The position numbers were made by a program, and so were the translations under genes. The notes below the pieces were generated by a model, which worked only from the letters and a program-made list of their open reading frames with translations, did not search any database and was not told where the DNA came from. From Blastococcus capsensis (GTDB lineage: Bacteria > Actinomycetota > Actinomycetes > Mycobacteriales > Geodermatophilaceae): a stretch of DNA of 64,000 bases. The stretch is from contig NZ_JASNNW010000010.1 of NCBI RefSeq assembly GCF_030165005.1, forward strand, positions 124,001 to 188,000, written 5' to 3'. Within the stretch, counting starts at the first letter, position 1. Every line of letters starts with the position of its first letter. This document shows, piece after piece, positions 38,215 through 40,982 of the stretch.

Positions 38215-38421
38215 GTGACGAAGCGCTTGATCGACCTCGACGACGACCTGCTGGCTTCAGCGCAACGCGAGCTCAACACCACCGGGGTGTCGGACACAGT
38301 CCGGGCCGCGCTGCGGCAGGCGGCGAGCGCGGCCGCCCGCGCGCGGCAGGTGACGTGGCTGCGCGAGGGTGGGCTCGAGACCATGGCGGATTCCGCCCGG
38401 CGAGCTGACGTGTGGCGGTGA
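38215..38421 (+). CDS. vapB: VapB-type antitoxin
   Basis: A 68-residue antitoxin. MTKRLIDLDDDLLASAQREL is a ribbon-helix-helix-like start, followed by NTTGVSDTVRAALRQAASAA. The C-terminus (VTWLREGGLETMADSARRAD) is the toxin-binding tail. GTG 38215 follows a palindrome-containing promoter. The gene overlaps vapC by ten bases, typical of a coupled pair. Confidence 0.85.
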   Translation: MTKRLIDLDDDLLASAQRELNTTGVSDTVRAALRQAASAAARARQVTWLREGGLETMADSARRADVWR

Positions 38422-38834
38422 TCGCCCGGTTCCTCATCGACACCAGCGCGGCGGCTCGGATGCGGCTGGCCGCCGTTGCCGACCGGTTGGAGCCACTCAT
38501 CTCCGGGGGACTGGTGGCCACCTGCGCCACCCTGGATGCCGAGGCGCTCTGCAGCGCCCGCAGCCCTGCGGAGTACGAGCAGGTGCGCGCCGACCGCCGC
38601 GAGGCGTACGAGTACCTGCCCACCGACGACGGTCAGTGGCAAGGTGCGTTCGACGCACAGCGCGTCCTGGCTCGCAGTGGGCGGCACCGAGCGGTAGGAA
38701 TCGCCGATTTGTTGACCGCCGTGCTGGCAGCTGAGCACGGGATGACGGTCCTGCACTACGACAGCGACTTCGAGATCGCTGCCGAGGTACTCGAGTTCGA
38801 GCACCGATGGGTGTTGCCACGAGGAACCGCCTAG
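38412..38834 (+). CDS. vapC: VapC-type PIN ribonuclease toxin
   Basis: A 140-residue PIN-domain toxin. Metal-binding acids appear in FLIDTSAAARM (first Asp), DAEALCSAR (Glu), VGIADLLTAVLA (Asp) and LHYDSDFEIAAEV (Asp). All four expected acidic positions are present, so it should be active and cleave tRNA or other RNA unless bound by VapB. Repeat R1 copy 2 begins 26 bases after its stop. Confidence 0.88.
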   Translation: MAVIARFLIDTSAAARMRLAAVADRLEPLISGGLVATCATLDAEALCSARSPAEYEQVRADRREAYEYLPTDDGQWQGAFDAQRVLARSGRHRAVGIADLLTAVLAAEHGMTVLHYDSDFEIAAEVLEFEHRWVLPRGTA

Positions 38835-39839: not shown

Positions 39840-40505
39840 TCAGCCGTGGGCGATCTGCCAGAAATCGCCCACCAACCCCACGCTGTCGAGGATGGCTTGG
39901 TTCTGCTGTCGAGAGTGCGGTTTCCACTGCGGGGCCAGCCGGTCCCCCCACCAGGCGTGGGCGAGGGCGCTCAGGGTCGTCGCGGGCATCGTCGCCCCGG
40001 GGGACCGGGCCCCGAGCCAGCGGTAAATGTGCTCCTCCGACCGGAAGAGATTCATCGTGCTCTAGGTGAAGACGATGTCGTCCCACCAACGGTGCGCGGG
40101 CACCAGGCAGTGGAAGAGCAGGGAGGGCTCGTCCGGGTGCTCGTCCTCGACGGCGACCTTCACCGGCTCGCCGCAGTCGGCGCAGGACGTCTCGATCCGT
40201 CCGTCGCTTCTCAGAGCGGCACAGATTCCGAAGGCGTCCCAGGCGCAGTTGGCGTACCACCAGCGGTCCGTTGCCCACACCCGGTAGGCGCTGGGGACGG
40301 CAGAGAAGGGGTTCGCCATGCGGATCTCGGTCCCCCCAGCGTTGAGGACCAGGGCGTGGTCCTCGTGCAGACGTCGCCACCCCGCACGCACCTCGGCGGC
40401 CGTCATCCTCATCACGACGGCGACCTCTTCGGCCGACGGGGACCGACCGAGCGCCACGAATGCCTGGTAGGTCTCGTTGCGCAGCGCGATGTCGGCAGGG
40501 CTCAC
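39840..40505 (-). CDS. MerB-like organomercurial lyase family, UAG-encoded selenocysteine
   Basis: One 221-codon gene interrupted by an in-frame TAG at codon 148 (40062-40064). The first part has a winged-helix start (TYQAFVALGRSPSAEEVAVV) and MANPFSAVPSAYRVW, then ANCAWD with Cys87 and Asp90 in the places of MerB Cys96 and Asp99. After LVPAHRWWDDIVFT comes TAG, then STMNLFRSEEHIYRWL, which joins perfectly to the family. The TAG sits where MerB has catalytic Cys159. A SECIS-like hairpin follows 12 bases later. In Geodermatophilaceae UAG can encode selenocysteine, so a Cys-to-Sec selenoprotein is likely. A nonsense mutation is the alternative. Substrate need not be organomercury. Confidence 0.75.
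40032..40049 (-). promoter_or_regulatory. SECIS-like hairpin
   Basis: On the coding strand, CTCTTCC-GGTC-GGAGGAG forms a 7-bp stem (one G-U pair) with a 4-base loop containing GU. Its 5' end is 12 bases after the UAG. E. coli fdhF SECIS has a similar apical hairpin with GU in the loop, recognised by SelB. Confidence 0.6.
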
Positions 40506-40982
40506 AGGGGCAGTGTGGCCCTACCGAGCCGCTTCGGGAGCGGTCGGCGGAGCGGCCGGCCGGCTGCTCGCGCGACGTGCGCAGCGGGAGCGGACGCGCC
40601 CTCCTCCGGCGCTCCGGAAGACCGGACCACGGTGGTCGGAAACCGTCGTTCTCCTGTCGGTGTCCGGCGGGCGACACGGTGTGCACGCGAACGTCTGGCC
40701 GTCGCCCTCGACCCGGGGGCGGGCGGACCGGAGGTGATCGACATCCGGACGAATCGGCGCGGGCCAAGGCCCGGCCCCGAGTACGGCGGCCTCTCGTCAC
40801 CGATCACGGAACCGGCTGCTGTCTCCCGGTGACCTGGACGAAGACCTGGGCAAGGCGCAGCCCCACGGCGGTGGGGGGACAGACAGCTCCGGCGCAGCAC
40901 GGAGCAGTTGGTCTCTGTTCGCGGGGGGACGGTCGGGCCAACCTCTTGGAGAGTCTTGCTGGGACCACGGAAGGGGATCGGG
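40506..40982. other. 477-base gap with a degenerate repeat
   Basis: No gene is supported. GGTGTCCGGCGGGCGACACG at about 40659-40678 may be a further diverged copy of repeat R1. Confidence 0.35.

Follow-up and report, generated by a model that had tools for sequence, protein, structure and literature searches.

A MerB-like protein of Blastococcus capsensis with selenocysteine predicted at an in-frame UAG codon

The MerB-like gene and its reading frame

The stretch of DNA analysed here, called the window throughout, comprises 64,000 nucleotides of Blastococcus capsensis, a member of the Geodermatophilaceae (contig NZ_JASNNW010000010.1, positions 124,001 to 188,000), and carries a gene for a MerB-like protein that is predicted to contain selenocysteine (Sec) encoded by UAG (Table 1). 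A single in-frame TAG, codon 148, is the sole break between the two halves of one reading frame on the minus strand, and a list of open reading frames (ORFs) made with the standard code splits the gene at this codon into two separate ORFs. The read-through product matches the Pfam MerB family (PF03243) with 87.9 bits against a cut-off of 27, and the match, over residues 67-186, extends to both sides of the TAG. In phmmer alignments to chains of the Protein Data Bank (PDB), residue 148 is aligned with Cys159 of MerB both in 5c17 (MerB2; E 0.00014) and, in a weak match, in 3f2g (E 0.063); MerB residue numbers were counted from the 3f2g chain coordinates of the alignment. A third PDB match, to an immunoglobulin chain (E 0.0051), was taken as chance.

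Cys96, Asp99 and Cys159 are named as essential for MerB (PMC8261052); Hg is bound by Cys96 and Cys159, and protons are carried by Asp99 (PMC4525700). A sequence-only reading of the window had proposed that a TAG alone separates the two halves of a MerB-family protein, exactly at the position of Cys159, that equivalents of Cys96 and Asp99 are present, and that a 7-bp hairpin with a GU-containing loop begins 12 bases past the TAG. All of this is borne out, the two equivalents being Cys87 and Asp90 and the loop being GGUC. The predicted structure has the MerB fold, with 17-20% identity in structural alignments to MerB (PDB 3f0o, 5c17), from which the window protein differs in having predicted Sec for the catalytic Cys159; Sec at this third catalytic position would be a functional analogue of Cys159 and not the defining residue. 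Foldseek and VIA-align rows ranked below MerB covered mostly residues 1-64 alone (DNA-binding regulators) and were not taken as function.

Table 1. Positions in the window of the MerB-like gene and its features (the 68-sequence alignment is described in the next section)
Feature	Position	Strand	Remarks
MerB-like selenoprotein gene (predicted)	39840..40505	minus	GTG start at 40505; 221 aa; Sec residue 148; TGA stop ending at 39840
TAG codon 148, predicted Sec codon	40062..40064	minus	Position of MerB Cys159
Predicted bacterial Sec insertion sequence (SECIS) hairpin	40032..40049	minus	7-bp stem, GGUC loop, starts 12 nt after TAG
Cys87 codon	40245..40247	minus	MerB Cys96 by phmmer alignment; invariant in 68 sequences
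Asp90 codon	40236..40238	minus	MerB Asp99 by phmmer alignment; invariant in 68 sequences
Cys108 codon	40182..40184	minus	MerB Cys117 by phmmer alignment; in at least 90% of 68 sequences
GCCACACT	40512..40519	minus	6 nt upstream of start codon; identical in six UAG orthologues at 6-8 nt

Codon 148 in orthologues and relatives

When 112 genomes of the family were searched with PF03243, 12 gave a match, and six of these, from four genera, had one TAG inside. This TAG is codon 148 in all six orthologues and the frame is open on both sides of it in every case, the five other UAG orthologues sharing 68-82% protein identity with the window protein. The rate of nonsynonymous substitution is below that of synonymous substitution both before and after the TAG in all 15 pairs, and purifying selection after the TAG is of similar strength. 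Relatives with the TAG and further decay, which the sequence-only reading had said would speak against recoding, were not among these six. Separately, some more distant MerB-family genes of the family (L016/L022 in G043 and L020/L021 in G104) are split over two frames, as by a frameshift or an assembly error.

For relatives elsewhere, one genome per species was scanned for two conserved peptides, neither of which includes codon 148 (one stops at the residue preceding it); 234 relatives were found and the best 80 were analysed. The comparison of homologues at this codon, also proposed in the sequence-only reading, gave TGA in 61 of these 80, TAG in four and Cys in 15. A chance occurrence is ruled out, since 6/6 orthologues have TAG at codon 148 and each of the best 80 of 234 relatives has TGA, TAG or Cys there. 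Thr precedes the Sec codon in all 65 stop-codon relatives among the 80, and the motif in the window is likewise TU. An alignment of 68 sequences, consisting of the window protein and 67 of the 80 loci, has Sec at this position in 54 and Cys in 14; it excludes the second copies L105 and L107 (found in the same genomes as L076 and L077, respectively) and 11 loci that are short or have a further stop within the aligned region, including one partial relative, L109, with Ala at the position of Cys87. The Sec form occurs in genomes classified in the Actinomycetota, Acidobacteriota, Verrucomicrobiota, Chloroflexota and Planctomycetota. By these comparisons the window protein belongs to a large clade in which UGA predominates.

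In a tree built without codon 148 and the next 11 columns, the Cys and Sec sequences lie on opposite sides of one branch (100/98), and the UAG sequences are nested within those with UGA. The best tree places two UGA genes, from a Sporichthyaceae metagenome-assembled genome (MAG) and from Nocardioides sp. zg-1230, inside the six UAG genes (98/93 for the set of eight rows), and the hosts of these two genes (L190, L192) have a tRNA-Sec with the anticodon UCA. A single clade of UAG sequences was not rejected by the approximately unbiased test (p 0.282), and we therefore do not claim any particular number of codon switches. The first alignment was matched by 39 of the 394 genomes in a class-wide sample; the single TGA locus read among them is apparently the gene of the Sporichthyaceae MAG again, by its identical context.

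Decoding machinery in this genome and in other hosts

The genome that contains the window (G000; 4.39 Mb in 51 contigs) has a tRNA-Sec gene with the anticodon CUA (65.3 bits, Rfam), closely followed by selA and selB and closely preceded by selD, all three over the cut-off. Thus the sel genes and the CUA tRNA-Sec, for which the sequence-only reading had proposed a search and whose absence it had held to be damaging, are all present. An internal control is given by formate dehydrogenase (FDH): two of the four genes of the molybdopterin oxidoreductase family in this genome carry a TAG within the match, and in both FDH genes it occupies the Sec position of FDH, flanked as NQARI-stop-HS. In one of these two, additional in-frame TAGs lie upstream of the match and are taken as preceding the start of the gene. 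As a separate observation, selB of this genome (G000:C48, L009 12879-12881) appears to end in TAG, eight codons before the next stop, in which case UAG would be both a Sec codon and a terminator in this genome.

Within the family, tRNA-Sec was detected in 108 of the 112 genomes, and the anticodon was read for 51 of the genes matched: 43 have CUA and eight UCA. All six genomes with a UAG orthologue carry a CUA tRNA-Sec. UCA was read in seven genomes from the genera coded g5, g6 and g7 (G066, G068, G069, G070, G072, G073 and G074), whereas CUA is the anticodon of the main tRNA-Sec in the remaining genomes read, and the change of anticodon is therefore bracketed within the family. Among the g5 genomes, only G067 has a MerB-like gene related to that of the window; its codon 148 is Cys, and no tRNA-Sec was found in this genome, which is 82% complete. 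A further genome, G058, has both anticodons; its second tRNA-Sec (UCA; L023, G058:C17:1173-1263) is on another contig than the CUA copy and, as judged by eye, close to a transposase-like ORF, and may reflect a mobile element or contamination.

Beyond the family, tRNA-Sec was looked for in the genomes of 42 of the best 80 loci, only the best match per genome (two identical ones in one genome) being read. Among the 28 genomes with TGA at codon 148, 23 have a tRNA-Sec and in all 23 it is UCA; the 14 genomes with Cys at this codon were covered by the same search.

A conserved hairpin after the Sec codon

The hairpin downstream of the TAG, CTCTTCC-GGTC-GGAGGAG in the window, was compared over 64 distinct Sec genes (6 with TAG and 58 with TGA, left from 6 TAG and 61 TGA loci after removal of duplicates and of stretches shorter than 60 nt). 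It always stands at the same distance from the stop codon; all 64 genes retain the inner five pairs and 49 of them the full seven, with a GGTC loop in 63 and a GATC loop in one. By contrast with these Sec genes, the hairpin is absent from all 26 Cys homologues (loci scoring at least 200), which keep between one and five of the seven pairs and never the GGTC loop. The search for conserved hairpins after TAG, the last of the comparisons put forward in the sequence-only reading, speaks for recoding, as does the comparison of homologues at codon 148. When the 3′ arm is slid, pairing falls from 96% to 50-67%, none of 2000 shuffles reaches the real value, and at three positions of the stem both members of the pair change.

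In the codons covered by the loop, one synonym is fixed although others are free (CTC in 36/36, CGG in 36/37 and TCG in 37/37), and a Glu codon whose third base is paired to U alternates between GAG and GAA. These counts come from 37 genes scoring at least 480 or having TAG, with L105 and L107 excluded, and the probabilities attached to them ignore relatedness. A GGTCT loop is found in both FDH genes of this genome. Apart from two matches far under the gathering score, an Rfam scan of the locus gave nothing. From its conservation the hairpin is predicted to be a SECIS, with binding by SelB presumed.

Predicted selenocysteine insertion and its proposed mechanism

One open frame, the position of the codon, the matching tRNA and sel genes, the conserved hairpin and the predicted fold all lead to the same reading, that Sec is almost certainly inserted at UAG codon 148. 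In the proposed pathway, SelD would supply selenophosphate, SelA would turn Ser into Sec on tRNA-Sec(CUA), and SelB on the GGUC-loop hairpin 12 nt downstream would bring the Sec-tRNA to UAG 148 instead of termination. In the folded protein, Sec148 and Cys87 would form a metal-binding selenolate/thiolate pair, with Asp90 as the proton donor in a MerB-type cleavage of a carbon-metal bond. A selenolate binds Hg more tightly than a thiolate and is deprotonated at neutral pH; the selenolate of Sec could aid the attack and could also slow product release.

Several observations weigh against this interpretation, in its decoding or in its functional part. The gene is sparse, being found with TAG in 6/112 family genomes, and among 29 class-wide loci read besides that of the window there are 1 TGA and 26 Cys, with 2 unaligned at the codon, so that Sec forms are in the minority in that sample. 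Five of the 28 TGA genomes gave no tRNA-Sec (one further match was a tRNA-Leu), and five of the 14 Cys genomes have one (UCA) and nine none. The counts also treat related sequences as independent. The folding energy of the single hairpin is unremarkable (z -1.57, with 14 of 200 shuffles folding equally well), and the hairpin is taken as real on the comparative evidence and not on folding energy. Restart of translation at an ATG 6 nt past the TAG is in principle conceivable. As to function, neither a conserved gene neighbourhood nor a mercury-related gene emerged from the scan of ten cluster representatives and six window ORFs, MerA is over the cut-off in only 2/6 UAG genomes (that of the window among them), and the NCBI MerB equivalog models NF009710 and NF033555 are not reached (27.1 of 193 bits and 25.8 of 200 bits, respectively).

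Gene context and possible substrates

Neighbours were examined by clustering ORFs of at least 80 aa around the relatives; the scan covered ten cluster representatives. These were an ABC ATPase, an amidohydrolase, an aldehyde dehydrogenase, a luciferase-like protein, a short-chain dehydrogenase, an acetyl-CoA synthetase-like protein, a metallo-beta-lactamase fold, an FAD/NAD-binding protein and two without a Pfam match. Outside the MerB-like gene itself, the widest neighbour cluster covers 7 loci.

The protein is probably a carbon-metal lyase, and an organometal is predicted to be the likeliest substrate class. The NCBI MerB models, left far under their cut-offs, do not imply a mercury function, and with no mer genes in the scanned neighbours and MerA in only two of the six genomes, organomercury is only the first candidate among organometals; as the natural substrate we consider it a tentative and rather doubtful choice.

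Evenly poised, in our judgement, is the reading that this is a Sec protein other than an organomercurial lyase, namely an enzyme of the MerB fold or a carrier of metal, acting on a different organometal or a metalloid and possibly SaoL-like. It is compatible with Sec insertion, would fit the lack of mer genes in the scanned neighbours, the presence of MerA over the cut-off in only two of the six UAG genomes and the missed equivalog cut-offs, and has a precedent in SaoL, a known MerB-like selenoprotein with the motif CU that belongs to the Sec-assisted organometallic (SAO) system (PMC13188914). Against it, the three MerB catalytic positions are kept, one of them as Sec, and the predicted fold is that of MerB. 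SaoL (NCBIfam NF040728) and the window protein are both MerB-like selenoproteins, but the latter is a partial profile match with 47.1 bits, under the cut-off of 140, and has TU where the published motif is CU; the two are set apart by the profile score and the published description. The SaoL model is matched by 60/68 members of the alignment at E ≤0.001, the comparison with the cut-off having been made for the window protein alone, and in an NCBIfam scan of the 68 members only the two MerB models and SaoL appear. A search for SaoL across 396 genomes from the phylum gave none over the cut-off, and no SAO-like operon was noticed around the window gene.

In a wider and more speculative form, which we regard as less likely than not, the multi-phylum MerB-fold Sec branch would cleave a carbon-metal or carbon-metalloid bond different from the one in organomercury, and the codon for its Sec would have been rewritten from UGA to UAG, perhaps back as well, on transfer between hosts with different tRNA-Sec anticodons.

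Two further features of the window may be mentioned. The sequence GCCACACT has equivalents upstream of the gene in Nocardioides (GCCATACT) and in the Sporichthyaceae MAG (GCCAGACT), and may represent the -10 element for a leaderless mRNA. At 38215-38834, a PIN-domain protein (PF01850, 34.5 bits) comes after a 68-aa ORF that has no Pfam match, and the pair is possibly a toxin-antitoxin system of the VapBC type.

Alternatives to selenocysteine

A premature stop, which would make the gene a pseudogene or leave a truncated protein of 147 residues, is suggested by the formal meaning of TAG and by the two separate ORFs listed. This is very improbable, given the TAG at the identical codon in orthologues from four genera without other decay, the similar purifying selection after it, and the restriction of this codon to TGA, TAG or Cys in all of the best 80 relatives.

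Equally hard to sustain is a split protein, in which UAG would separate two polypeptides that assemble after termination and restart. An in-frame ATG 6 nt past the stop codon, present in 58/64 Sec genes including that of the window, is what such a restart would use, but the ATG is lacking in 6/64 and the Cys homologues are single proteins. Moreover, the type of stop codon fits the anticodon of the host tRNA-Sec wherever one was found, and the hairpin with its GGTC or GATC loop accompanies every stop-codon form compared and no Cys form.

Reading of UAG as another amino acid, for example pyrrolysine, is least probable of all: ARAGORN labels the CUA tRNA as tRNA-Pyl, presumably since it names tRNAs by anticodon, but this tRNA scores as tRNA-Sec in Rfam and adjoins selA and selB, a search of the genome for the PylS C-terminal family reached only 22.7 bits (cut-off 178.15), and all 15 non-stop relatives among the best 80 have Cys.

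Relation to known selenoproteins

The sequence-only reading had taken UAG decoding as Sec in Geodermatophilus and Blastococcus as established knowledge, and PMC5330540 agrees: it reports FDH and UGSC-motif proteins as UAG-encoded selenoproteins of the Geodermatophilaceae (Mukai et al., 2016) and adds AhpC to them. The window protein shares with these the recoding by a CUA tRNA-Sec, and FDH copies are found in the same genome, but it is of another family with another active site; MerB is not named among UAG selenoproteins in section 17 of that paper. From NCBI-defined MerB it is distinguished by scores under the equivalog cut-offs and by scanned neighbours without mer genes. Zhang and Gladyshev (2008) and Peng (2016) are cited in a 2022 review for a MerB-like selenoprotein, and the word MerB is absent from their main texts. 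No earlier mention of the present clade was found in the literature searched, Mukai (2016), Haft and Gwadz (2023) and Haft and Tolstoy (2025) lying outside that search.

Implications

If Sec is inserted as predicted, a MerB-like protein joins the UAG-encoded selenoproteins. Genes of this kind are cut in two by gene finding with the standard code, and surveys of merB may therefore miss them. Because the predicted Sec lies at a residue of worked-out MerB chemistry, comparison of the Sec and Cys forms within one fold would test the benefit of selenium in carbon-metal cleavage. Codon and anticodon can also be compared across hosts, UAG going with CUA in 6/6 genomes and UGA with UCA in 23/28, that is, where a tRNA-Sec was found. 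The family and its relatives would thus offer a natural experiment on how a recoded codon can be altered while the genes relying on it are retained.
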